Below, one piece after another: positions 7,378 to 62,960 of a DNA stretch of 64,000 nucleotides. Source of the DNA: Burkholderiales bacterium (GTDB taxonomy: Bacteria > Pseudomonadota > Gammaproteobacteria > Burkholderiales > Burkholderiaceae_C); assembly GCA_947474755.1 (NCBI GenBank), contig CANJJE010000005.1, positions 114,137 through 178,136 on the forward strand. The letters are read 5' to 3'. The notes beneath the pieces are model-generated. The model was not told the DNA's origin. It saw only the letters and a list, made by a program, of their open reading frames with translations, and did not search any database. The translations under genes were made by a program, and so were the position numbers. Positions within the stretch are counted from its first letter, which is position 1. Every line of letters begins with the position of its first letter.

Positions 7378-8042
7378 ACCTCTGCCTGTTCGACCTCGAC
7401 GACACCCTGCTGCCACTCGATTCCGATCACGCCTGGGGCGAGTTCGTGATCTCCCTCGGCTGGGTCGACGAGTCCAGCTTCCGGCGCGATAACGATGGGT
7501 TCTTCGCCCAGTACCAGGCGGGCCAGCTCGATGTCCACGGCTACATCGAATTCGCGACCCGCCCTCTGCGTGAGCGTTCCGCGCAGGAGCTCAGTGCCGC
7601 GCAAGCCCTGTTCATGCAGCGGGTGATCGAGCCTGCCCTGCGCGACAGTGCCCGCGAGCTGGTGCGCCGACACCAGGCGCAAGGCGATCAGGTGGCGCTG
7701 GTCACGGCGACCAATGAATTCGTCACCGCGCCGATCGCGGCGGCGTTCGGGATTCCCGTGCTGATCGCGGTACAGCTTGAGCGTGACACGCGCGGTAGCA
7801 TCACCGGCCGCATCCGAGGCATACCGAGCTACCGGGAAGGGAAGGTCCGGCGTGTCGAGGAGTGGTTGGGCGACCAGGGCGTCTCTTGGCGCGACTGTGG
7901 CCGCATCACCGTCTACAGCGATTCGCTGAACGACCTGCCGCTGCTTGAAAAAGCTACCGATCCGGTGGCGACCAATCCGACGCCCGCGCTGCGCGCGCTC
8001 GCTCACCAGCGCGGCTGGCCAACGTTGAATCTGTTCACATGA
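7374..8042 (+). CDS. HAD-IB family hydrolase (phosphoserine phosphatase-like)
   Basis: MNLCLFDLDDTLLPLDSDHAWGEFVISLGWVD...DSLNDLPLLEKATDPVATNPTPALRALA. Confidence 0.85.
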   Translation: MNLCLFDLDDTLLPLDSDHAWGEFVISLGWVDESSFRRDNDGFFAQYQAGQLDVHGYIEFATRPLRERSAQELSAAQALFMQRVIEPALRDSARELVRRHQAQGDQVALVTATNEFVTAPIAAAFGIPVLIAVQLERDTRGSITGRIRGIPSYREGKVRRVEEWLGDQGVSWRDCGRITVYSDSLNDLPLLEKATDPVATNPTPALRALAHQRGWPTLNLFT

Positions 8043-49600: not shown

Positions 49601-51727
49601 ATGAAACGCTACAAGCGCGCTGCGCTGATGCTTTGCTCCTCCTCCCAACTTGCACTCACCGCTGTGGCCCAAGAGGCGAGCCCAGGCGTGCGGCTGGACG
49701 CCGTCACCATCACCGGCACTCGCCAGGCCTACCAGGGCGATTTCAATCGACTGGAAACACCGCAAACCGAACAGTCCATCGATGCGGAGACCCTGCGCGC
49801 TTCGGGTGCGGTCGACCTGACCCGAGCGCTGGACCTGTCGGCGTCGGTGGCCCGGCAGAACAACTTCGGCGGGCTGTGGAACGCCTTTGCGCTGCGTGGC
49901 TTCGTGGGCGACGAGAACCTGCCGAGCAACTACCTCGTCAACGGCTTCAATGCCGGCCGGGGCTTCGGTGGGCCACGGGATCTGTCAGGAATCGAGTCGG
50001 TCGATGTGCTCAAGGGGCCACGCGCAGCGATGTTCGGGCGCGGTGAGCCTGGCGGCACGGTCAACCTGGTAACCAAGCGTCCCACGTTCAAGACCGCCGG
50101 CGAGTTTCGTGTCGCCGCCGGCAGTTTCGACACCTACCGAACCGATGCCGACTGGACGACACCGCTATCAGATGCAGTCGCCGTCCGCCTGATCGGCTTT
50201 GCCGAAGACGCACGCAGCTTCCGCGACACCGTCGAAACCCGCAAGTACGGCATGAGCCCGTCGCTGGCGTGGCGCATCAGCCCACAAAGCAGGCTGATCT
50301 ACGAACTGGAGCTCAGCCATCAGGAGATCCCGTTCGACCGCGGTGTGCTGGCGATCAACGGCGAGCTCGGTCGCCTGCCGCGAAGCCGCTTCCTGGGCGA
50401 GCCGGGAGACGGTCCGCTGAAGGCCGACGTGCAAGGTCACCAGCTCGAGTTTCAGCATGACTTCAGCAAGGACTGGAGCGCCCTGTTGGGGCTCACCACG
50501 CGCGAGACCTCACTGGAAGGCTTCTCGACCGAAGCGGAGCTGGCTACCAATCGCCAGAAGCTGCTGGTGGATGGCCGCACGCTAACCCGGCAGCGCCGCT
50601 TCCGCGACTACGACGCCGACTACCAAGTGCTGCGGGGTGAGATCAACGGCCGCTTCCAACTGGCCGGGCTGCAGCACCGCCTGATATTCGGGGTCGATGC
50701 CGATCGTTTCGAGAACGACCAGATCTTTCTGCGCGCCCGCGCGCCCGCGCTGGCCAGCAATCCGACGCTGGCCCAACAGCAAGCGATCGACATCTTCAAC
50801 CCGATCTACGGCAGCTACCCCTTGCCCACCCCAACACCACTCACCAATCGAGTGGAGACGCAGAAGTCGGTGGGCGTGTTCGTGCAGGACCAAATCAACC
50901 TGAGCGAGAGCCTGCAGCTGCGATTGGGCGCACGTTTCGAAGACTACCGGCAGACCCTTCTCAACCGGGCGAACAAGCAGAAGTCGTCGCAGAAGGAAAC
51001 GCGCACCAGCCCGCAGATCGGCGTCGTGCTCCGGGCAACCGATGCCCTGTCGCTGTATGCCACGTACGGCGAGAACTTCCGCCCGCTGTCAGGGGCCGAT
51101 GCCCAAGGCAACGGCTTCGAGCCCAACCAGTCCACCTCCATCGAGGCAGGCGCGAAGTTCTCGCTGGGCGGCATTGACGCCACGGTGGCCGTGTTCCATA
51201 TCAAGCAGAAGAACATCCTCGTCGCCGCAGACGCCAGCGCAGCAACCCAGCTGGCCATCGGCAAGGCACGAAGCCGGGGCCTGGAGATTGACTTACAAGG
51301 CGAGATCACCAAAGACCTGAGCCTGTGGGCGTCGTATGCCTATGTCGACGCGAAGACCTCAAACACCTTCAACGACCCCAACTTCGGCGTTGCGGTGCCT
51401 GCCGGCTCGCGCTTGCTCAACGTGCCCAAGCACACTTTGAGCCTGCAACTGGTTAACTCGATGGCTGTGGCCGGTCGCGGCCTGCAGCTCGGCGGCGGTC
51501 TCCTCCACGTGGGTGAGCGCTCGGGCGAGTTCACCACCAACTTCAAGTTGCCGTCTTACACAGTGGCTCGGGCGTTTGCCGCCTATGAGGTGAACCGGTC
51601 GATGACCTTGCGCCTTGACGTTGACAACCTCTTCAACGAGACCTACTACACCAACTCGTTCTCGGCGCTGTGGGTGCAGCCGGGTTCGCCACGCAGCGCG
51701 CGGGTGTCCGCCTCATTCAAGTTCTGA
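49601..51727 (+). CDS. TonB-dependent siderophore-type receptor
   Basis: Signal peptide; plug AVTITGTRQAYQGDFNRLETPQTEQSIDAETLRASGAVDLTRALDLSASV...VLKGPRAAMFGRGEPGGTVNLVTKRP; C-terminal ...SPRSARVSASFKF. Confidence 0.93.
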   Translation: MKRYKRAALMLCSSSQLALTAVAQEASPGVRLDAVTITGTRQAYQGDFNRLETPQTEQSIDAETLRASGAVDLTRALDLSASVARQNNFGGLWNAFALRGFVGDENLPSNYLVNGFNAGRGFGGPRDLSGIESVDVLKGPRAAMFGRGEPGGTVNLVTKRPTFKTAGEFRVAAGSFDTYRTDADWTTPLSDAVAVRLIGFAEDARSFRDTVETRKYGMSPSLAWRISPQSRLIYELELSHQEIPFDRGVLAINGELGRLPRSRFLGEPGDGPLKADVQGHQLEFQHDFSKDWSALLGLTTRETSLEGFSTEAELATNRQKLLVDGRTLTRQRRFRDYDADYQVLRGEINGRFQLAGLQHRLIFGVDADRFENDQIFLRARAPALASNPTLAQQQAIDIFNPIYGSYPLPTPTPLTNRVETQKSVGVFVQDQINLSESLQLRLGARFEDYRQTLLNRANKQKSSQKETRTSPQIGVVLRATDALSLYATYGENFRPLSGADAQGNGFEPNQSTSIEAGAKFSLGGIDATVAVFHIKQKNILVAADASAATQLAIGKARSRGLEIDLQGEITKDLSLWASYAYVDAKTSNTFNDPNFGVAVPAGSRLLNVPKHTLSLQLVNSMAVAGRGLQLGGGLLHVGERSGEFTTNFKLPSYTVARAFAAYEVNRSMTLRLDVDNLFNETYYTNSFSALWVQPGSPRSARVSASFKF

Positions 51728-51773
51728 AATGAAGCCCCCACGCTCACGTCTTTCGCTGCCTCCCGAGGGGGCT

Positions 51774-51807
51774 GTCAGTACCGTCGCAACGGCGAGTCGG
51801 TACTGAC
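51774..51807 (+). promoter_or_regulatory. Perfect 10-bp hairpin abutting ABC ATPase start codon
   Basis: GTCAGTACCG-TCGCAACGGCGAGT-CGGTACTGAC followed directly by ATG at 51808. Confidence 0.6.
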
Positions 51808-52533
51808 ATGGAGTCCGAACTCAGGCTGCAGGCGGACAAACTGCGCGTGCAGCGCGGCGGCAAGGAGGTGCTGGCCGGTGTCAGCTTCGCAGTGGCCTGC
51901 GGTGAGGTGTACGGTCTGCTGGGTGGGAACGGCGCCGGCAAGTCGACAACGCTGGCGACCTTTCTAGGCTTCCTGCCCGCTGCCAACGGCCGCGTGCTCG
52001 TCAACGGCCAGGATGTCGGCAACGACCTGTTGGCCGCCCGCCGTGCCATGGCCTATCTGCCGGAGGCCGCCTCGCTGTACGAACACCTGGACGCGCGCGA
52101 GAACCTGACCTACTTCCTGCAACTGGCGGACGTGCGCTGCAGCAAAGCCGACATCGACACGGCGCTGGACCGAGTCTCGCTTGGCACCGACGCGCGCAGC
52201 CTCAAGCTTCGTGGTTACTCCAAGGGCATGCGCCAGAAAGTGGCCATTGCTCTGGCGATCCTGCGCGACACGGACATCCTGCTGCTCGACGAGCCGACGT
52301 CCGGGCTGGACCCGACGGCGATCGACGAGTTCCACGATCTGGCGCGCGGGTTGGCCAATGCCGGCAAGGCCATCCTGATGGTGACGCACGATGTGTACGG
52401 CGCCTGCCAGGTGGCCGACCGCATCGGCCTGCTGCGCGGCGGGCAGCTGGTGGACCAGTTCCAAGCGCCCGCCGGCGACCGCATCGACACCGAGACCGTG
52501 CACCGCGCCTTTTCTGCGAAAGCGGCCGCGTGA
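51808..52533 (+). CDS. ABC transporter ATP-binding protein
   Basis: VYGLLGGNGAGKSTTLATFLGFL (Walker A), LRGYSKGMRQKVAIALAILRDTDILLLDEPTSGLDPTAIDEF. Confidence 0.93.
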   Translation: MESELRLQADKLRVQRGGKEVLAGVSFAVACGEVYGLLGGNGAGKSTTLATFLGFLPAANGRVLVNGQDVGNDLLAARRAMAYLPEAASLYEHLDARENLTYFLQLADVRCSKADIDTALDRVSLGTDARSLKLRGYSKGMRQKVAIALAILRDTDILLLDEPTSGLDPTAIDEFHDLARGLANAGKAILMVTHDVYGACQVADRIGLLRGGQLVDQFQAPAGDRIDTETVHRAFSAKAAA

Positions 52534-53966
52534 GACGCCTGTTCATCATCGCCGGCGCTGAATGGCGCTACTGGCTGCGTTCACGCCTGGCCCTCAGTGG
52601 GGCCCTTCTGTTGGCCGGGCTGCTGATCGCAACCACGGTGCTGACCACGTTGCGCATGCAGGGCGAAGCAGCGGATCGTGCGCACCACCAAGCCGACGCC
52701 GAAGCGGCCTTCCTCTCGCAGCCTGCCCGCCATCCGCACCGCATGGTGCACTACGGCCACTATGTCTTCCGAACGCCAGCACCACTGGCCTTGTTCGACC
52801 CCGGGCTGGATCCGGTCACGGGCCAGTCGATCTTTCTCGAAGGACACCGCCAGAACACGGCGATGTTCGCGGCGTCCGGCGCCAGCGCCGATCTGGGCGG
52901 CTTCAGCTGGCTGAGCCCGGCAACGGTCTACCAGCTGTTCGCTCCGCTGCTGGTGATCCTGCTGGGGCATGGCCTGATCGCGCGCGAACGCGAGGCCGCG
53001 ACGCTGGCGACCCTGCTCGCCCAAGGCACGCCGGGCCGGGTGCTGCTGGCGGGCAAGGCACTAGCGCTGCTTTCCTTTGTGGTGTTGCTGCTGGTGCCGC
53101 TGGCGATCAGTGCCGGTCTGGCCGTCCGTGCGGGCGAGCAGGCGCTGGCTGCCTGGGCCTTGTTCGGCGCGTACGTGCTGTACCTGGTCATCTGGGCCGC
53201 GCTGGCTTTGCTGGCTTCTGCACTGCTGCGCCGTCGCTCGGCCGTGCTGGCGACCCTGGTGACGCTGTGGATCGCACTGAATCTGGTGCTACCTGCGGTG
53301 GCGGCCAGTTGGGCGTCGAATGCCGCCCCGATGGTGGGTAAGCTCGAGACCGACCTGGCGATGCTGTCCGACCTGCGCAAGCTGGGCGACGGCCACAACG
53401 CCAACGATCCGGCGTTCGCCCAGCTGCGCGCCGACCTCCTGGCCAAGCACGGAGTACAACGTGTCGAAGACCTGCCCGTGAACCTGCGCGGCGTTGTGGC
53501 ACAGGTCGGCGAGCAAAAGCTCACCGAGACGCTGAACCGCTACGCCCGCGTACAAGCGTCGGCAGAGGTCCGGCAGGCGGCGGTGCTTGCCAGCCACGGC
53601 TGGTTCACCCCGCTGCTCGCGGTGGCCGAGGCTTCACGCGCCGTGGCCGGCACCGATCTCGTGCACCACCACCGCTTCCTGCAGGAGGCCGAAGCGCTGC
53701 GCTACGCCTTCGTGCAGGGCCTGAACAAGGTACACGCCGAGAAGCTGGCCTACAGCGACGACGTCCGCCGCAGCGGCGATGCGTCGGCTGAGGAGCGTAC
53801 GCGCGTGGACTCCACAAACTGGCAGCTGCTGGAGCGCTTTCGTTTCGAGCCCGATGCGGCAGGCAACCGCATCGCCCGGGCGGGCCCGCAGTGGCTGATG
53901 TTGTGCGCTTGGTGCGTCATCCTGGTCGGCACTGGGTTCTGGGCTGGCGGAAGGCTCACGCCATGA
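52530..53966 (+). CDS. ABC-2 type permease, DUF3526-like
   Basis: N-terminal TM, large periplasmic insert, TM cluster LFAPLLVILLGHGLIAREREAATLATLLAQGTPGRVLLAGKALALL; overlaps upstream stop by 4 bp. Confidence 0.85.
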   Translation: MRRLFIIAGAEWRYWLRSRLALSGALLLAGLLIATTVLTTLRMQGEAADRAHHQADAEAAFLSQPARHPHRMVHYGHYVFRTPAPLALFDPGLDPVTGQSIFLEGHRQNTAMFAASGASADLGGFSWLSPATVYQLFAPLLVILLGHGLIAREREAATLATLLAQGTPGRVLLAGKALALLSFVVLLLVPLAISAGLAVRAGEQALAAWALFGAYVLYLVIWAALALLASALLRRRSAVLATLVTLWIALNLVLPAVAASWASNAAPMVGKLETDLAMLSDLRKLGDGHNANDPAFAQLRADLLAKHGVQRVEDLPVNLRGVVAQVGEQKLTETLNRYARVQASAEVRQAAVLASHGWFTPLLAVAEASRAVAGTDLVHHHRFLQEAEALRYAFVQGLNKVHAEKLAYSDDVRRSGDASAEERTRVDSTNWQLLERFRFEPDAAGNRIARAGPQWLMLCAWCVILVGTGFWAGGRLTP

Positions 53967-55249
53967 GTGCGCCGTCCGCTTCCGTAGGCACGTGGCCCGC
54001 TGTCCTCCGCGAGACCGCCTTCCTGGCCCGCGACCGGTCGGTGTGGGCCTGGTGGCTAGTCGTGCTGTGCCTGTCGGTGCTGGCCGTGTCGGCGGGGCTG
54101 TCAGAGATCCGGCAGCAGAAGGCCACGATCGAACGCCTGGTCGAAGCCGACCGCGCCGATCGCCTGAACGTCCTGAAGACGCAGAAGGACTGGGGCGGCG
54201 CCGCGTACTACAGCTTCCACCTTACCTTCGAACCGCCGTCGGACTTCGCATTCGCGGCGCTGGGTCGGCGCGATGACGTGGCGTGGAAACACCGCGTGAG
54301 GATGCTGGCGTTGGAAGGACAGATCCATGAGCGCGATGTCGGTCATCCCTTGCTGGCCCTGATCGGTCGATTCGACTTCGCCTTCCTCGCGGCCTTCGTG
54401 CTGCCGCTGGTGCTGATCGTGCTGCTGCACGACCTGCACGCCAGCGAGCGCGCGGCAGGGCGCCACGACCTCCTGGCGGCCACCGCCGGTCACCCGGCAA
54501 GGCTGTGGTGGCTACGCGCTGGACTGCGTGCCGGCGGCGTGTTGGTTTGTGCTGCACTACCTTTGCTGGTGGCCGCGGGCCTGAGTGGTAACGCCGCGCC
54601 GACGCTGCTGGCGGCCTGCGCGCTGCTGTTCGTCTACCTGCTGTTCTGGACTATGGTCTGCACGGCTCTTGCGGCCTGGCAGCAAACGGGCGAGGTGATC
54701 CTGGCCACGCTGGTGGCGCTGTGGATTCTGCTGGGTGTCGTGGCCCCGGCCGCCGGCCGCATGGCCATCGACCGTGCGGTGCCCGTGCCATCGGGTGCGG
54801 ACATCATCATGACCCAGCGCGAAGCAGTGAACGACGCCTGGGACCTGCCCAAGACCACCACGATGACGGCCTTCGTCGAACGCCATCCGCAGTGGGCGGC
54901 CTACACCGCTGTCGAACGCCCATTCGAGTGGAAGTGGTACTACGCATTCCAGCAAGTGGGTGACCAGAAGGCGCAGGCGCTGTCGAAGGCCTACACCGCG
55001 GGTCGCAAGGAGCGTGACCGGTTGGCTGGCTGGCTGGCCGTCATCGCACCGCCAGTGCTGCTGGAACGCTCTCTGCAGAAACTGGCGGGGACTGACCTGG
55101 GGACATTGCTGGCTTACGAGGCCAGGGTACGAACCTTTCATGCCTCATTGCGCGATTTCTACTACCCGCGGTTCTTTCTTGACAAGGCCTTCGAACCTCG
55201 CGAACTGGATGGCTTACCTCGCTTTGCTGCGCCAGCGGGCCGCAACTGA
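53963..55249 (+). CDS. ABC-2 type permease, DUF3526-like (second copy)
   Basis: FLAAFVLPLVLIVLLHDLHASERAAGRHDLLAATAGHPARLWWLRAGLRAGGVLV; overlaps upstream stop by 4 bp. Confidence 0.85.
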   Translation: MSAPSASVGTWPAVLRETAFLARDRSVWAWWLVVLCLSVLAVSAGLSEIRQQKATIERLVEADRADRLNVLKTQKDWGGAAYYSFHLTFEPPSDFAFAALGRRDDVAWKHRVRMLALEGQIHERDVGHPLLALIGRFDFAFLAAFVLPLVLIVLLHDLHASERAAGRHDLLAATAGHPARLWWLRAGLRAGGVLVCAALPLLVAAGLSGNAAPTLLAACALLFVYLLFWTMVCTALAAWQQTGEVILATLVALWILLGVVAPAAGRMAIDRAVPVPSGADIIMTQREAVNDAWDLPKTTTMTAFVERHPQWAAYTAVERPFEWKWYYAFQQVGDQKAQALSKAYTAGRKERDRLAGWLAVIAPPVLLERSLQKLAGTDLGTLLAYEARVRTFHASLRDFYYPRFFLDKAFEPRELDGLPRFAAPAGRN

Positions 55250-55415: not shown

Positions 55416-55802
55416 TCATCTTGGTACGTGTGGGGATGTCGGCAGTGGCGCTGGCAGTCGCGCCAGGATCCCCTCGCGCAATCGCTCAGGCCGCGCCGTG
55501 CGGGTCATGAAACCATCGTCACTGGCCAGGTGTAAGGCTGCGCAGGCCAATACCTGTTCGGCGCTGGTCTCATCGGCCGGCAGGTCGCCGAAGAAGTAGG
55601 TGGTCTTGCCGGGAGCCTGCAGCGCCACGGTGCAGTGGCGGTGACAGCCGCTCATGCACTCCACGGGGCGGATGGCGAAAGCCAATTCGTCGCGCAGGGC
55701 GATGTTCTCGATGGCTTCGAGCAGCGCACGCCCAGGGCGTGGATGATCTCGCGGCAATTCGGCCGGGCGGCAGAGTACGCAAACAAGAATCTCAGTGGTC
55801 AT
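55416..55802 (-). CDS. DUF1636-family putative metal-binding protein
   Basis: MTTEILVCVLCRPAELPRDHPRPGRALLEAIENIALRDELAFAIRPVECMSGCHRHCTVALQAPGKTTYFFGDLPAD: conserved cysteines (CVLC, CMSGCHRHC). Confidence 0.75.
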   Translation of the reverse strand: MTTEILVCVLCRPAELPRDHPRPGRALLEAIENIALRDELAFAIRPVECMSGCHRHCTVALQAPGKTTYFFGDLPADETSAEQVLACAALHLASDDGFMTRTARPERLREGILARLPAPLPTSPHVPR

Positions 55803-56187
55803 AAACAACGCTCCATGTGTAATGGACGGGCAGCATCGAGCGCCAGAACCAGACGCGCCAGCCCGGTGTCGGAGATGCGAAGTGAACGGTGCACGATGCC
55901 GCTGTCATGCTGCTGGACAGGCCAACCGCAGCCTTTGAACAAGGCAACTTCGCCCGCTTGCAGGTCCATCGCCTGGGGTGCCTTGTCATCAGGTTGATCC
56001 ATCATCGAAGTGCCCATGGCGGGTGGCGCCTATTGCGTGCCAGGGCCTCGGTAAGTGCAGATCGGCCGCAGTTGCGCGGTGCGGATTTGCGCCACAGCGG
56101 GAAAGCTGGCGACGAGGCCGGGCAATGTCGCCAACCACATCCGCACTGCGCCCGATGCACACGACCGACAGCACAGTTCTGAGCCGG
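55799..56187 (-). pseudogene. DUF1826-family remnant (N-terminus missing, internal amber stop)
   Basis: Minus-strand LRPICTYRGPGTQ* APPAMGTSMMDQPDDKAPQAMDLQAGEVALFKGCGWPVQQHDSGIVHRSLRISDTGLARLVLALDAA; both pieces in one frame, broken by TAG where family pattern suggests Trp. Confidence 0.6.
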
Positions 56188-57201
56188 TCAAGCGGCTGCC
56201 GTGCCACGCTGCCATAACAGCCCGATGACAAAGGCGGCCCCGATGCTGGCGGTGACGATGCCCACGGGAAGCTCCTGCGGCGCCATGAGCACGCGCGCGA
56301 GCAAGTCGCTGCCCAGCAGCAGAAGCGCGCCCATCAAGGCGCAAGCGGGCACCAGCGCGGCGTGCAGCAAACCAGCCGAGCGGCGCATGAGGTGCGGCAC
56401 CATCAACCCTACGAAGCCGATGACGCCCGCCAAGGCCACGCAGCAGGCGGTGGCCAATGCGGTGACGATGAGCACCTCCCTGCGCAGGCGCTGTGGCGCA
56501 ACGCCCAGGCTATGCGCCACCTCGTCACCGGCCAGCAAGGCGTCCAGCGCGCGGTGTTTGGCTGCCACGAAGAGGGTCAGAGACAGGCAACCGGCCAAGG
56601 CCAGCGCCAGGTTGTCCCAGCGCGCCTGGCCCAGGCCACCCAGAGACCAGAAAAGGACCGAGTGCGCCGCACGCTGGTCGCCAGCAAACACCAGAACATG
56701 CGTCAAGGCACCGAACAGGAATGACATAGCCAGACCCGCCAGCACGATGGGCTCTGCTCCGTGCCCCGCGCTGCGCTGCGCCAGCAGCAGCACGCCACCG
56801 GCGGCCACCAGCCCACCAGCAAACGCCGCCACGGGAAGCGTCCAGACACCGAAGCGCTCACCCGTCAGCGAAATCACCGCCACCGCACCGGCAGCAGCCC
56901 CAGAAGACAACCCGAACAGAAACGGGTCGGCCAAGTCATTGCGCGTAGCCGTTTGCAACAGTGCGCCAGACATCGCCAGAGTGGCGCCCACCAGCACTGC
57001 CAGCAGCACACGAGGCAGGCGTAAGTCGACCACGATGGCGCGGGTGGCGGCTTCGGCCACGTTCAAGGTGGCATCGCCAGGTGACATCAGGCTGGCCCAC
57101 ACGCTGCCCGCCGCAATGTGCGTGCCGCCCAGGCTGAGACCCAGCACCAGAAACAACGGCAGGCCTGCCGTCAACGTGGCATGAACGTGCCAGGGCTTCA
57201 T
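56188..57201 (-). CDS. FecCD/BtuC-family metal-complex ABC permease
   Basis: VDLRLPRVLLAVLVGATLAMSGALLQTATRNDLADPFLFGLSSGAAAGAV...GVIGFVGLMVPHLMRR. Confidence 0.93.
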   Translation of the reverse strand: MKPWHVHATLTAGLPLFLVLGLSLGGTHIAAGSVWASLMSPGDATLNVAEAATRAIVVDLRLPRVLLAVLVGATLAMSGALLQTATRNDLADPFLFGLSSGAAAGAVAVISLTGERFGVWTLPVAAFAGGLVAAGGVLLLAQRSAGHGAEPIVLAGLAMSFLFGALTHVLVFAGDQRAAHSVLFWSLGGLGQARWDNLALALAGCLSLTLFVAAKHRALDALLAGDEVAHSLGVAPQRLRREVLIVTALATACCVALAGVIGFVGLMVPHLMRRSAGLLHAALVPACALMGALLLLGSDLLARVLMAPQELPVGIVTASIGAAFVIGLLWQRGTAAA

Positions 57202-58172
57202 GGCGCAAGCGCGTTCAAGGCGCGGGACAGCTTCTCAACGGCATCAATGTTGGCTGGGCCGGGTGTGAGCTCGGCATAACGCATGGCGATGAAGCGCTGG
57301 TGCTTCACGGCACTGGTGTGGCGCATGGCTGGGTGTGCCTGCAAGGTGGCCATCAAGCGGCTCGGGCCTGCGCCGTCCTGGTAGTCCAGCAGGATCAAGA
57401 ACTGGGGGTCGCGCGCGGCCACTGCCTCCCACGAACTGTGGGCCCAGCTGGTCCGCATGTCGTCCATGATGTTTCGGCCGCCCGCTGCTTCGATCACTGC
57501 CGTGGCCATGGCTGCAGCACCGGCGGTAAAGGGTTTGTCTTCGCCAGAGTCGTAGACGAATACCCGCAGAGGTGTGACGTTCGGTGATGCCACCGCGGTG
57601 GGACTCTGCACCAAGGCCTGCAAACGCTGGCGCCACTGCGTCACCAGGGCCTCGGCGCGCAGGCGCTGGCCGAACACGGTGCCCAGGCGCAGCATGTCGT
57701 TGTAGAGCAGGTCCATAGTGGCGCGAGGGCGCTGTTGCCCGGTGTGGACACAACTCTCAGTCAACACCAGCGTAGGGATGCCATGCCGTGCCAGCGTGGC
57801 GGGCGTCACGTCACTACCGGGCTTCATGCCGTAGTACCAGCCGGCGAAGAACAGGTCTGGGCGCGCTGCCAACAGGTTTTCAAGCGTGGGGTACTTGGGT
57901 GCCAGCTCAGGAATGGCACCCAGCGCGGCTTTGAAGCTGGCATCGGTCTTGTACCAACCGGTGATGCCCGTGACGCCTGCAATCTGCGCCTGCAGGCCCA
58001 GCGCCAGGGCCATCTCGGTCATGTTCAAGTCGTGGATCACCGCGCGCTGCGGCGGCGCGGTGATGCGCAGCGGCGTGCCGCAGTTGTCCACCGTGACAGG
58101 AAATGCGTGAACGCCGCAGACCATGCTGATGCCGAGCAGGAGCAGTCCGCACCCGTTCACGAGGCGTGTCAT
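57198..58172 (-). CDS. FecB/BtuF-like ABC substrate-binding protein
   Basis: Signal peptide, VTVDNCGTPLRITAPPQRAVIHDLNMTEMALALGLQAQIAGVTGITGWYKTDASFKAALGAIPELAPKYPTLENLLAARPDLFFAG. Confidence 0.9.
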   Translation of the reverse strand: MTRLVNGCGLLLLGISMVCGVHAFPVTVDNCGTPLRITAPPQRAVIHDLNMTEMALALGLQAQIAGVTGITGWYKTDASFKAALGAIPELAPKYPTLENLLAARPDLFFAGWYYGMKPGSDVTPATLARHGIPTLVLTESCVHTGQQRPRATMDLLYNDMLRLGTVFGQRLRAEALVTQWRQRLQALVQSPTAVASPNVTPLRVFVYDSGEDKPFTAGAAAMATAVIEAAGGRNIMDDMRTSWAHSSWEAVAARDPQFLILLDYQDGAGPSRLMATLQAHPAMRHTSAVKHQRFIAMRYAELTPGPANIDAVEKLSRALNALAP

Positions 58173-58960
58173 GCAGCCAGCTTCTCGAAGACCCACAGAT
58201 CGCGTTGCTCCTGCGGGTGTCGGGTGCGCACCAGGGCCATGCCGAAGACCCGCGCCACCAGGGGTGCCGTCATGGTTTCTTCCGGAGAACCTTGCCCCAC
58301 CACGCGGCCACCGCTCACCACCACCACGCGGTCGGCAAAGCCCGCCACCAGCGACAACTCATGCAGGGCCGCCACCACTGTGATGCCGAGGCCTCGCACC
58401 AGATCCAGCAGTTCGACACGGGCACGCAGGTCCAGGTGGTTGGTGGGTTCATCCAGCACCAGCAGCGCTGGCTCCTGCGCCAGCGCCCTCGCCAGGTGGG
58501 CACGCTGGCGCTCGCCACCCGACAGCGTGTGCAGCCCCCGCTGCGCGGCGCCTTGCAAACCGCACAGCTGCAACGCATGGGCCACCACTTCGCGGTGGTG
58601 CGCGCTGGCGCAGCGTCCCTGGTGAGGCACGCGGCCCAGGCCCACGTAGTCGTGCACACGCAGGCGCAGATCGGCGTGTTCGGTCTGGCCTACGGTGGCC
58701 ACCTGGTGCAGGTGGGGCTGCACACTGGGAGGTGCGCCAAGTTGAGCGTGCCCTGGCAACTGACCCACCTGGACACGGCCCGCTGTGTGCCGCAAGCGAC
58801 CGCTGATGAGACCCAGCAAGCTGCTCTTGCCCGCGCCATTGGGCCCGATCACGGCGCATCGTTCACCCGCACCCACGGCCATGTTGATGCCATCCAGCAG
58901 CACCACACCCTGCGCGGTTTGAAGGCTGACACCCTCCATCTGAACCGATGCGCAACCCAT
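58169..58960 (-). CDS. FecE/BtuD-like ABC ATPase
   Basis: CAVIGPNGAGKSSLLGLISGRLRHTAG, LHTLSGGERQRAHLARALAQEPALLVLDEPTNHLDLRARVELLDLV. Confidence 0.93.
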   Translation of the reverse strand: MGCASVQMEGVSLQTAQGVVLLDGINMAVGAGERCAVIGPNGAGKSSLLGLISGRLRHTAGRVQVGQLPGHAQLGAPPSVQPHLHQVATVGQTEHADLRLRVHDYVGLGRVPHQGRCASAHHREVVAHALQLCGLQGAAQRGLHTLSGGERQRAHLARALAQEPALLVLDEPTNHLDLRARVELLDLVRGLGITVVAALHELSLVAGFADRVVVVSGGRVVGQGSPEETMTAPLVARVFGMALVRTRHPQEQRDLWVFEKLAA

Positions 58961-58968
58961 GCCGCGCC

Positions 58969-61239
58969 TCAGAACTGCAAATTGAGTGACAGCTCCACGG
59001 TGCGCGGCGCGCCCAGCAGGATCTGATCCGGGTAGAACGGGTCGCTCCACAAGGCATAGCTGCGATCGGTGAGGTTGCGCACGCGCAGGCTCAGTCGCGT
59101 GCGGGGCTGCAGATCCACCGCGACGGCAGCATCAGCCACGGTGTAGGCAGCCAACTTCACGGTGTTGGCGTCGCTGTGGAATCGCTCGCCGACCCGGCGC
59201 ACGGAGCCCGACAGTTCCGTCGGCCAGTCGCCGCCCCAACGGTAGGTAACGCCGGCATTCGTCACCAGCTTGGGTGCGTTGGGCGGTCTGTTGCCACTGA
59301 GTGAGCCGCTGGTGGTGCTGTAGTCCTCATAACGGGTACGGTTGAGCGCCACGTTGCCCCACACGTACCAGCCGTGCGCCGCGCGCCATGACGCCGAGAG
59401 TTCGGCCCCGTGTGACGCTTGCTTGCCCGCCAGCGCCAGCGCCTGGCCTCCCTGTGCTGCGTAGACGTTGCGGCGCACGGTGTCGTAAAGCGCCAGCGTC
59501 CATTCACCACGCTGTGACCAGAAGCTTTGCTTCACACCCACTTCCACGGTGCGCGTACGCGTCAGGTCCAGGGGCTGGTTGGCGCGCAGCAAGAACAGGT
59601 TGTTCGCAGCCACGTCGGCAGCCGTGGCGTACTGGCCATAGAGCGTGAGATCTGGCGTCAGGTCCCAGGTCAGACCCAGCCGACCAGTCGTTGGTCGCCA
59701 CGTTTTGCCGAACGGGAAGCCCGGGCGTTGAACACCGGCGGCGTTGGCCGAACTGCGGTCCAGTTCGATCGACTCGTGACGCAAGCCCGCGATGATCGCC
59801 ACGCCCGGGCTCACGACCAGACGGTCTTCAACAGCCAGCGCCACGTTGGTGATGTCGGAGGTTTGCCGCTGTTTTGTAAGCAGGCCGTAGGTGCCACGCT
59901 GCGGGGCCACCAGACTCACGCTGTCGCCAGGGAAATTGGCCGCACCGGGCCGCTCAAACTGCGTGTCGGCCCACTCCAGCGCTACAACCAAGCGGTTGCG
60001 CAAACCGCCAATGGGCGCGTCCCATTGCAGTTCGCTCTTGTTGCCCACTGTGGTCTGATCATGGGCCACGTAGAAGCGCTCACGGTCCACCAGACCGGTG
60101 CCAGCATTGAAAGCCGTCACTTCGTTGTTGAACCACTCGCGATCAGCGCTGAAACGGTAGAACTGGGTGCGCAAGGTCAAGTCCGTGCTGACCTGCCAAT
60201 CGGCGCCCAGGCGCAGCCAGCGTTCTTCTGCTTCGTTGCGGTTGTCCAGCACGTTGTAGTTGGTGCGACGCGTTCGGCGATCGATGGTCACCGCGCCCAG
60301 GTCGCTGCCGTTGAAGCCCGACACGTACGTGCCCGACACCACGCCCGATTTGCCTTGCACGCCTGGCGCCGCGACCGACACCAGCGGCGTACCCCAGTAC
60401 GCGCTGCTGTCGTCTTCCTTGAACTCGACCGCACCAAACAGTTTCAAGCCTGGCTGGGCGTACCAGTCCAAGCCTCCTGACAGATGCCAGTTTTCATGGC
60501 GCGTGTCTTTGATGAAACCATTGCCAGCCGAGCGGTTGAGGTCGATGCGGTAGTCCAGGCTTTCCACTGCCGTGGTGCCACCCGAGCCAAAGCCGCTGCG
60601 CACGGCACCGTACGAGCCTGTGGAAAGATTCAGTTCGTGCTGCGGCTTGCCGCGTTGCGGTTGCCGCGTCACGAAGTTCACCGCACCGCCAGAAGCCCCT
60701 TCACCGGACATCAGCGAGGCGGGGCCTTTCAGGAACTCGATGCGCTCGAGGTTGCCCACGTCCATCACACGCGAGGTCATGTTGGGCGGCCCGATCTTCA
60801 GGCCGTTGTACAGCGTGTTGATCTGACTGTTGGCAAAGCCACGCATCGAGAAGTTGGCCGGCTCGGCAGGGAAGTCACCTGCCGTCACCCCCGTGGCTGC
60901 GAGGGCCGCCTCAGTGACACTGCGCGCACCTCGCTCGCGCAGCAGGCTCTGGGAAAGCACTTCGATCGACGCAGGCGTTTCCCGCAGGGTCAGGCCCAGG
61001 CGAGAGGCCGAACCCGACGGCTGCTGCAACGCGGGTTGCTCGCGCTCGCCGACGATGGTCACCCGCGGCAACGCGGTCTGGCTCGGCTCGGCAGCTTGGG
61101 CGGGTTGGGCCAGCACTTGGCCGCTGTGGATCAACACAGCCAGCGACGCAATCCACCTCGCGGTCTGCAGTTGTGAAGTCATGGGGACTGTCTGGAGTTG
61201 TGAAGTCATGGGGACTGGTTTGCGAGTGAGCTTTGACAT
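58969..61239 (-). CDS. TonB-dependent siderophore-type receptor (FhuA-like); start ambiguous (61239, 61209 or 61182)
   Basis: LGLTLRETPASIEVLSQSLLRERGARSVTEAALAATGVTAGDFPAEPANFSMRGFANSQINTLYNGLKIGPPNMTSRVMDVGNLERIEFLKGPASLMSGEGASGGAVNFVTRQPQ; terminal VELSLNLQF. Confidence 0.93.
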   Translation of the reverse strand: MSKLTRKPVPMTSQLQTVPMTSQLQTARWIASLAVLIHSGQVLAQPAQAAEPSQTALPRVTIVGEREQPALQQPSGSASRLGLTLRETPASIEVLSQSLLRERGARSVTEAALAATGVTAGDFPAEPANFSMRGFANSQINTLYNGLKIGPPNMTSRVMDVGNLERIEFLKGPASLMSGEGASGGAVNFVTRQPQRGKPQHELNLSTGSYGAVRSGFGSGGTTAVESLDYRIDLNRSAGNGFIKDTRHENWHLSGGLDWYAQPGLKLFGAVEFKEDDSSAYWGTPLVSVAAPGVQGKSGVVSGTYVSGFNGSDLGAVTIDRRTRRTNYNVLDNRNEAEERWLRLGADWQVSTDLTLRTQFYRFSADREWFNNEVTAFNAGTGLVDRERFYVAHDQTTVGNKSELQWDAPIGGLRNRLVVALEWADTQFERPGAANFPGDSVSLVAPQRGTYGLLTKQRQTSDITNVALAVEDRLVVSPGVAIIAGLRHESIELDRSSANAAGVQRPGFPFGKTWRPTTGRLGLTWDLTPDLTLYGQYATAADVAANNLFLLRANQPLDLTRTRTVEVGVKQSFWSQRGEWTLALYDTVRRNVYAAQGGQALALAGKQASHGAELSASWRAAHGWYVWGNVALNRTRYEDYSTTSGSLSGNRPPNAPKLVTNAGVTYRWGGDWPTELSGSVRRVGERFHSDANTVKLAAYTVADAAVAVDLQPRTRLSLRVRNLTDRSYALWSDPFYPDQILLGAPRTVELSLNLQF
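61169..61217 (-). repeat. Tandem duplication of the translation-start region of the TonB receptor
   Basis: AGTTGTGAAGTCATGGGGACTG at 61169-61190 and 61196-61217 (period 27 nt) encodes MTSQLQTVP/MTSQLQTAR. Confidence 0.85.
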
Positions 61240-61243
61240 GGCT

Positions 61244-62239
61244 TCAGCGCTGCGGCGCCTGCCGAACACCGGCTACGCATTGCGCCAATCCATCCAGCAA
61301 CACGTCCTTTGGCATGACGCGGCCGATGAAGACCATCTTGGATTCGCGCTTTTCGCTCCGCTTCCAGGCCGCGCCCGGCTCCGAGGCCATCAGCATGTGC
61401 ACACCCTGGTAGACGACACGCCTGTCGATGCCCTTGATGTTGAGCACACCCTTGTAGCGCATCAGCTTCGCGCCATAGATCTGCACGATGGAGCCAAGAA
61501 AGGCCTCGACACGTTTCAAGTCCAGCGGCTTGCTCTCGCGGAATACGAACGACGTGACGTCATCGTCATGCTCGTGGTCGACGTCAGTCAGGAAGTCGGG
61601 GTCGATCTCGAGAATGGTGTTCAGGTCGAAGCCCCGGATGTCCAGCAAGTCGTCGATCGAGGCGACGCCATGCTTCGCCTCGCCGATCCTGGCGCGCGGG
61701 TTCATCTTCACCAGACGCTGACGCAACTCGTCCACGTTGTGGGGTTGCACCACGTCGGTCTTGGTGATGAGAATGCGGTCGGCAAAGCCGACTTGCTCCT
61801 GCGCTTCGTGGTGCTCATCGAGTTGCGCGGGCGCATGCTTGGCATCGACCATGGTGACGATGGCGTCCAGCAGGTACTGCCGGCCGATCTCGTCTTCAAC
61901 GAAGAAGGTCTGCGCCACTGGCGCCGGGTCGGCCAGCCCGGTGGTCTCGATGATCACCCGGTCGAAGTGAAGCGTGCCGGCGGTCTTCTTGGCGTGCAAC
62001 TCACCCAGTATGCGCACCAGGTCGCCGCGCACGGTGCAGCAGATGCAGCCGTTGTTCATCTCGATGATCTGCTCGTCGCGGTCTTGCACCAGCAGTTCGT
62101 TGTCGATGCCGGCCTCGCCGAACTCGTTCTCGATGACGGCGATGCGATGACCGTGCTGTTCCTTCAGGATGCGGTTGAGCAGCGTGGTCTTGCCGCTGCC
62201 CAGGAAGCCGGTGAGGATAGTGACGGGGATTGGGTTCAT
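61244..62239 (-). CDS. CobW/COG0523-family GTP-binding metallochaperone
   Basis: [25 protein letters not shown] (Walker A), [14 protein letters not shown] (CxCC), ITKTD, HEHDDD. Confidence 0.94.
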
Positions 62240-62451
62240 GGTCAGGTTCCTGTCGAAGTTCATGTCAGGGCGCGGCGCACCCGTTCAAACCATTGCTGCA
62301 CATGCAGCCGATGCGCGTCGCCATGGAGCCGTGCGAATCGCCGCGACTCTTCATGGCTCGCGGTGCGCCGCGCTGCCAGCTGCTACTCGGCGCAGGCGCG
62401 GGTTGGTCATGGCGGCTGCGATCGATACACACATCGGATGCGCTCTAGATC

Positions 62452-62469
62452 GTAATGGTAACGCATTAT
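62452..62469. promoter_or_regulatory. Candidate Zur/Fur operator in the cobW-zur divergent intergenic region
   Basis: gTAATG-GTAACG-CATTAt inverted repeat, 35 bp before Fur-family start, within cobW upstream region. Confidence 0.5.
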
Positions 62470-62504
62470 CAGTAGAGGGCCCTGGAATCCGGTAACCTCC
62501 ACCC

Positions 62505-62960
62505 ATGGAACGCAACACCCGCCAACGCAGCGCGATCCGCGATGCCATCGCCCTGGCCGACCGGCCGTTGCTGCCGCAAGAGGTCCTGGAAGCTGCTCAG
62601 CACGTCGTGCCGGGGCTGGGCATCGCCACGGTCTATCGCAACCTCAAGGTGCTGGTGGAGGAAGGCGAACTCCAGGTCGTCAACCTGCCCGGCGAGAACC
62701 CGCACTTCGAACTGGTGGGCCACCAGCACCATCACCATTTCCAGTGTCGGCAATGCCAGCGCGTGTTCGACGTACACGCCTGCCCAGGCGACCTGAGGCG
62801 AATGGCACCGCAGGGCTTCACGGTGGAAGATCACGACCTGACGCTGTACGGACGATGCAAGGACTGCGTGGCGCCCGAGGACAAGTGCACCACGAGCGAG
62901 GCCTGCGATTTGGAAAACCATAAGCACACGACCGCTCACACGCGCCGACATCGCGGCTGA
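62505..62960 (+). CDS. Fur-family transcriptional repressor, probable Zur
   Basis: MERNTRQRSAIRDAIALADRPLLPQEVLEAAQHVVPGLGIATVYRNLKVLVEEGELQVVNLPGENPHFELVGHQHHHHFQCRQCQRVFDVHACPG...LYGRCKDC; divergent from COG0523 gene. Confidence 0.88.
   Translation: MERNTRQRSAIRDAIALADRPLLPQEVLEAAQHVVPGLGIATVYRNLKVLVEEGELQVVNLPGENPHFELVGHQHHHHFQCRQCQRVFDVHACPGDLRRMAPQGFTVEDHDLTLYGRCKDCVAPEDKCTTSEACDLENHKHTTAHTRRHRG

Follow-up and report, generated by a model that had tools for sequence, protein, structure and literature searches.

TonB-dependent ATP-binding cassette (ABC) importers controlled by Zur, zinc clusters with COG0523, DUF1826 and FolE2, and riboswitch-controlled importers of vitamin B12 are each already known. 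COG0523 proteins occur in both B12 and zinc regulons. In Pseudomonas aeruginosa, PA2911-2914 comprises a Zur-regulated TonB receptor and an ABC importer (PMC4542158, PMC11481552, PMC13083405). Cobalamin import by this system was proposed as possible by Pederick et al. (PMC4542158). According to Secli et al. (PMC11481552) and a 2025 study (PMC13083405), it imports cobalt with pyochelin under zinc starvation, and cobalt eases zinc starvation. Partial use of cobalt by zinc-starved cells is described in Cupriavidus (PMC11340326). In Caulobacter, znuK/znuGHI is a Zur-regulated TonB receptor with an ABC-2 system (PMC4176598).

Here we describe an operon in a stretch of 64,000 nucleotides from a Burkholderiales bacterium (contig CANJJE010000005.1, positions 114,137 to 178,136), hereafter called the window. 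Its minus-strand genes are, in order, those for a YjiA-like COG0523 GTPase (cobW), a TonB receptor, a FecE-type ATPase, a periplasmic substrate-binding protein (SBP), a FecCD-type permease, a decayed DUF1826 protein and a DUF1636 protein, and a Zur-type gene is divergent from them. With a probability of roughly 0.57, this operon encodes a Zur-controlled importer of a cobalt-containing ligand, either a corrinoid or a cobalt chelate, functionally like PA2911-2914. From the gene content, the operator and the riboswitch or Zur contexts of the homologs, which are observed, we infer how the operon is repressed, what it imports and what the GTPase does, as follows. When zinc falls, the divergent Zur-type repressor would leave the operator, and the operon would be transcribed. 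The TonB receptor and FecE-SBP-FecCD would carry the cobalt-containing ligand across both membranes. The COG0523 GTPase, perhaps with DUF1636, would handle the metal, and cobalt would replace zinc or feed B12-dependent enzymes. As relatives of the transporter are switched by vitamin B12, it is suggested that zinc hunger is answered by import of cobalt, either chelated or within a B12-like molecule.

Predicted Zur operator and divergent regulator

The intergenic region shared by the operon and the regulator gene contains the exact palindrome GTAATGGTAACGCATTAT, the only exact match to RTAATGN6CATTAY in the 3.06-Mb genome, and therefore the link of the operon to Zur is well supported at the sequence level. 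The reversed control pattern has no match. The expectation from base composition is about 0.08 per genome and 6e-6 per intergenic region; the pattern was picked after inspection of the sequence, and these figures flatter the box somewhat. Orthologs of the regulator in Acidovorax (68-70% identity) likewise face a box, TTAATGATAATGCATTATC, which can be aligned with the window site. The znu-linked Zur of the same genome faces CCAATGCAATTGCATTAG, in which the AATG-N6-CATT spacing is the same as in the window box. In vitro, Paracoccus Zur binds to promoters with GTAATGTAATAACAT-type sites (PMC5387054).

The divergent regulator shows 42% identity to the znu-linked Zur, and the HACPG motif is seen in both, while its identity to the genome's own Fur is 34% over 89 amino acids. 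Its score with the NCBIfam Zur model is 23.9 bits against a cut-off of 167, and it is therefore from the paralog and the context that the label "Zur-type" is taken. A first-pass annotation, made from the DNA sequence, had described this regulator as Zur-like, and the comparison with Zur and Fur, together with the unique box that the gene faces, bears this out. The box itself was omitted there, as was the neighbouring TonB/DUF3526 ABC-2 operon.

These facts also bear on the idea of an ordinary iron-siderophore importer, beside which a Fur-family gene stands by chance. The transporter is of the FecBCDE type, and the receptor is just below the cut-off of the TonB-siderophore subfamily (TIGR01783, 220.7 bits against 223.5). 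However, the regulator is Zur-like and not Fur-like, the box is Zur-type and unique in the genome, the relatives carry Zur boxes or cobalamin riboswitches, and the context is that of COG0523, DUF1826 and FolE2. This explanation is very improbable, and it was set aside since no Fur link of any sort was found.

Riboswitches and Zur-type sites before the homologous transporters

Relatives were collected with the SBP as bait, their genes were called with a codon-usage method, and their neighbourhoods were compared with the window proteins. The best 80 loci from 84,980 species genomes (57-85% SBP identity) belong to Comamonadaceae, Rhizobiales, Stappia, Vibrio, Pectobacterium and Pantoea, among others. 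Within the family, a close form of the SBP is present in 11 of 301 sampled genomes, including the window's own, with 61-79% identity outside that genome. Its distribution is patchy, and three genomes of the same genus are without it.

Cobalamin riboswitches (RF00174, Rfam) are found directly 5' of the orthologous TonB gene (67-68% identity) in Acidovorax (L062, L063, L066 and L071) and also in L040. They are also seen before the transporter set in L073, L098, L106, L110, L156, L157 and L158, and a few kb upstream of the set in L042 and L043. A search for the B12 box places one before nearly all Rhizobiales loci, which carry the FecE-SBP-FecCD set. In Pelomonas (L133), the order is SBP, FecCD, cobW, cobN, chlI-type ATPase, VWA, DUF1636 and a CobB/CobQ-type gene, and CobN lies likewise 3' of the set in L042. 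In the SBP tree, the Acidovorax group with riboswitches falls together with the window's group (L055-L058) in a clade with support of 99. The riboswitch and cobN/cobB contexts point to cobalt or corrinoids and are a poor fit to a zinc chelate; on this ground, cobalt or a corrinoid is favoured as the ligand over a zinc metallophore. The window system may still transport zinc.

The neighbourhood closest in content is that of Limnohabitans (L055), in which a zur gene faces COG0523, TonB, FecE, SBP, FecCD, a further COG0523, intact DUF1826, DUF1636 and FolE2 (PF02649). In L058, a zur gene faces cobW, TonB, FecE, SBP and FecCD. The neighbourhood search proposed in the first-pass annotation, for the order cobW-TonB-ABC-DUF1826-DUF1636, thus finds a comparable set in the former locus and its part from cobW to FecCD in the latter. 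That annotation had also proposed that a chelated form of zinc or cobalt is taken up upon zinc starvation, rather than B12. The zinc part stands on the regulator, its box, the boxes of the relatives and FolE2 downstream of DUF1636 in Limnohabitans. The exclusion of a B12 system is contradicted by context, as the whole TonB-FecE-SBP-FecCD set in Acidovorax and FecE-SBP-FecCD in most Rhizobiales are behind cobalamin riboswitches, and Pelomonas has the cobN/cobB cluster.

The same contexts make it unlikely that the operon serves, under Zur control, to import a zinc chelate produced by other organisms, which would require a different ligand for the relatives with riboswitches or cobN. Homologs with SBP, permease and receptor of 62-70% identity are behind cobalamin riboswitches, which is hard to reconcile with a zinc chelate, and the genome has its own znuCBA. 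No genes for biosynthesis or export of a metallophore are found among the operon neighbours scanned with Pfam, as the first-pass annotation had noted for biosynthesis genes, and use of a foreign metallophore is compatible with this. The Zur box and the Zur-type gene at the operon would suit a zinc chelate, as would FolE2 and DUF1826 in the Limnohabitans cluster, the ZigA and azt genes seen beside some relatives of the transporter, and the resemblance of the DUF3526/TonB neighbour to Caulobacter znuGHI/znuK (PMC4176598).

Zur-type sites are also seen before the relatives. The set is immediately preceded by gamma-type Zur boxes in Vibrio sonorensis (L115, TGCTATGTTATAACATAACA) and Pectobacterium (L128 and L130, TGTTATGTTATAACATATCA). 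A Klebsiella pneumoniae plasmid (L155; NZ_CP057100.1, 7574-12583) contains the Zur box TGATATGTTATAACATATCA at 7574, a broken cobW, ATPase, SBP, permease and ZigA. Within one gene of this plasmid there is also a weak match of the N6 type, which is probably due to chance, and the strong gamma-type box at 7574 was used instead. The SBP matches 557 Klebsiella plasmid records, the best with 58-60% identity, of which this one was examined.

Five Acidovorax/Paracidovorax loci without a riboswitch by Rfam contain a palindrome near TTAAYGCAA-N5-TTGCRTTAA before the TonB gene. Because, on the Klebsiella plasmid, a palindrome of the same kind separates a COG0523 gene from that of a Fur-family repressor, the palindrome of these loci was taken as a Zur-type site, and it is likely to be a Zur-family operator. 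In L134, the palindrome is between the TonB gene and a divergent cluster of COG0523, a hexapeptide-repeat (gamma-carbonic-anhydrase-like) protein and a Fur-family regulator, which is Fur-type. Tandem copies of this palindrome are also found upstream of Comamonadaceae metal-transport clusters (L037/L067, L039/L061 and L068).

Both elements occur among the relatives of a class-level sample of 369 genomes, in which the SBP has matches under E 1e-30 in five genomes besides the window's own, four of them at 46% identity or more. One genome (G593) has two copies, L157 behind a riboswitch and L162 behind a gamma-type Zur box. L158 has a riboswitch, L159 a gamma-type Zur box and L160 a weaker Zur-like box, and the match in the fifth genome (L161, 33% identity) has neither a riboswitch nor a Zur box.

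The elements can also be combined. In 29 of 55 Rhizobiales loci with riboswitches, the 160-bp segment that adjoins the aptamer on its 5' side contains a Zur-type palindrome (3 mismatches or fewer). By comparison, one is present in 0 of 165 windows located farther upstream and in 3 of 275 shuffled sequences. The 29 loci are not independent, since most are Mesorhizobium. Judging from these sites, Mesorhizobium-type loci are apparently under dual control by zinc and B12. In L071, the riboswitch is preceded by a Zur-type box, and L040 has a GCAA-N5-TTGC site with one mismatch plus the riboswitch. In Mesorhizobium and its kin (L073-L132), the palindrome precedes the B12 box by about 225-300 bp and stands before FecE-SBP-FecCD with or without a leading DUF1636.

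On the SBP tree of 92 rows, presence of the riboswitch corresponds to 8 changes and presence of a Zur-type box to 13, numbers to be read as "several times" and not as exact counts, because some labels (L155, L067, L068, L042, L043, L158 and the Mesorhizobium list) were added by hand. It can be speculated, tentatively and at slightly less than even odds, that Zur, acting at the promoter, and the cobalamin riboswitch, acting in the leader, control a single importer family for cobalt-containing ligands either alone or together, and that the window lineage, where the riboswitch is absent, answers to zinc alone. Among the best-ranked matches in the open-licence literature, no description was found of one transporter family under both Zur and a cobalamin riboswitch.

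Genes of the operon and the rest of the genome

The eight genes named in the first-pass annotation are all at their places and on their strands, and every family assignment holds in Pfam (Table 1). Likewise, the 4-bp overlaps mentioned there are likely present as ATGA at three junctions, fecE/SBP, SBP/fecCD and DUF1826/DUF1636. The GTPase contains the CxCC motif and the cobW and CobW_C domains of the YjiA subgroup of COG0523; its score with NF008578 is 314 bits, below the cut-off of 361. When the intact protein of Limnohabitans L055 (253 amino acids) is compared by tblastn, only residues 164-245 are matched, with 52% identity and an in-frame stop. DUF1826 is thus a pseudogene in the window genome, with the C-terminal third left.

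Table 1. Features of the operon, its regulatory region and the neighbouring operon (positions in the window).
Feature	Position	Strand	Evidence and remarks
TonB receptor, ABC ATPase and two DUF3526 ABC-2 permeases (neighbouring operon)	49601-55249	+	Pfam
DUF1636, small Cys-rich protein	55416-55808	-	PF07845, 109 bits; likely start ATG 55802
DUF1826 pseudogene remnant	55799-56071	-	PF08856, profile positions 155-202 of 202
FecCD/BtuC-type permease	56188-57201	-	PF01032, 291 bits
FecB/BtuF-class periplasmic SBP	57198-58196	-	PF01497 (Peripla_BP_2); start probably ATG at 58172
FecE/BtuD-type ABC ATPase	58169-59050	-	PF00005, 99 bits; start probably internal, near 58960
TonB-dependent outer-membrane receptor	58969-61269	-	PF07715 (Plug) and PF00593 (barrel); start probably ATG near 61181, inside the longest open reading frame
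COG0523 GTPase, YjiA-like	61244-62263	-	PF02492, 194 bits, and PF07683 (CobW_C); CICC (CxCC) motif in translation
Predicted Zur-type operator GTAATGGTAACGCATTAT	62452-62469		in the 241-bp divergent intergenic region; 0 mismatches to RTAATGN6CATTAY
Fur-family regulator, Zur type	62505-62960	+	PF01475, 72 bits; paralog of the genome's znu-linked Zur

Elsewhere in the genome, zur-znuCBA is on contig 22 and a second ZnuA-type ABC system is on contig 2. On contig 8, a cobalamin riboswitch is followed by BtuB, BtuF, BtuC, BtuD and CobT-type genes (names read from translations). The window operon thus comes in addition to the usual routes for zinc and B12. This matters for the explanation that the operon is nothing but a specialised second importer of vitamin B12 (corrinoids), in which Zur control serves to swap zinc-dependent for B12-dependent steps and not to supply cobalt; it overlaps the reading as an importer of a cobalt-containing ligand and differs from it solely in the use of the ligand. 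Riboswitch control of the relatives would agree with it, and the genome has MetH plus two MetE-type domains. On the other hand, the canonical riboswitch-btuBFCD is already there, the receptor is not BtuB-like, and the COG0523 GTPase would be left unexplained. We regard this explanation as rather improbable.

Several points weigh against import of a cobalt-containing ligand under Zur. The genome's own riboswitch-btuBFCD makes a second corrinoid route not obviously necessary. The receptor is outside the BtuB family (TIGR01779, 56.7 bits against a cut-off of 599.7) and appears from its scores to be of the siderophore-receptor type. The SBP is outside the BtuF family (PRK03379, 36.9 against a cut-off of 234), and uncharacterised and haem-binding proteins are nearer to it than BtuF is. 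In agreement with the first-pass annotation, no B12 riboswitch is found in the window region by Rfam or by the search for the B12 box. YjiA-type COG0523 proteins prefer Zn(II) in calculations for Salmonella (PMC7895991). The genome has two Zur-type genes, each a candidate binder of the box, and a sigma-70 scan of the divergent region around the box gives no promoter-like site. Finally, the parallel with PA2911-2914 would be a functional one, drawn by description rather than sequence. Rfam gives a second match in the window, to mir-587, which is below gathering (E 0.11) and due to chance.

The structure of the SBP had been suggested as a check of the ligand. The AlphaFold2 model is confident (predicted local distance difference test score of 88), and its best Foldseek matches are 4mlz and 4n01, but the fold search separates no ligands. 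Binding proteins with a helical backbone match the model whether their ligand is haem, a siderophore or B12, and uncharacterised proteins match it as well; the structure therefore leaves the ligand undecided.

The neighbouring operon is possibly a second zinc-starvation system and part of the same response. In Acidovorax L062, L063 and L066, homologous ATPase/DUF3526 genes are next to the zur ortholog with its box and form a contiguous stretch with the riboswitch-TonB-ABC set. Among 14 control genomes, DUF3526 is seen in Caulobacter only.

Zinc, cobalt and the known systems

The operon and its relatives provide natural pairs, in which the transporter is under the B12 riboswitch, under Zur or under both, and the zinc-cobalt link can be directly tested with them. 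They bear on the question of why zinc-starved cells take up cobalt. If the importer handles a cobalt-containing ligand, zinc starvation would be met partly by uptake of corrinoids or cobalt chelates, and the switch from zinc to cobalt would be common to soil, aquatic and plasmid-borne systems. The question extends beyond one bacterium, since homologs are frequent on Klebsiella plasmids, one of which carries a homolog with a Zur box.

Compared with znuK/znuGHI of Caulobacter, the neighbouring operon contains the same types of parts, and DUF3526 also occurs in the Caulobacter genome. The ABC-2 part is distinct from the FecBCD importer of the window, and no exact Zur box is found before the neighbouring operon. 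The BtuBFCD system resembles the window operon in transporter architecture, and relatives of the latter use its riboswitch class, RF00174. In contrast to it, the window operon is without a riboswitch, its receptor is not of the BtuB family, and a canonical BtuBFCD is present elsewhere in the genome. PA2911-2914, likened to the window operon by gene content and description, also combines a TonB receptor and a FecBCD-type ABC importer in one operon with a Zur box, and in P. aeruginosa zinc starvation induces it, while the COG0523 GTPase at the head, DUF1636 and the divergent Zur-type gene are seen in the window alone. The Zur-regulated COG0523/DUF1826/FolE2 clusters (Haas et al. 2009, PMC2770081) share with it the CxCC-containing COG0523, the Zur box and DUF1826, and FolE2 is found in the Limnohabitans relative. 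In the window, DUF1826 is decayed, and a complete TonB-ABC importer is coupled to these genes.

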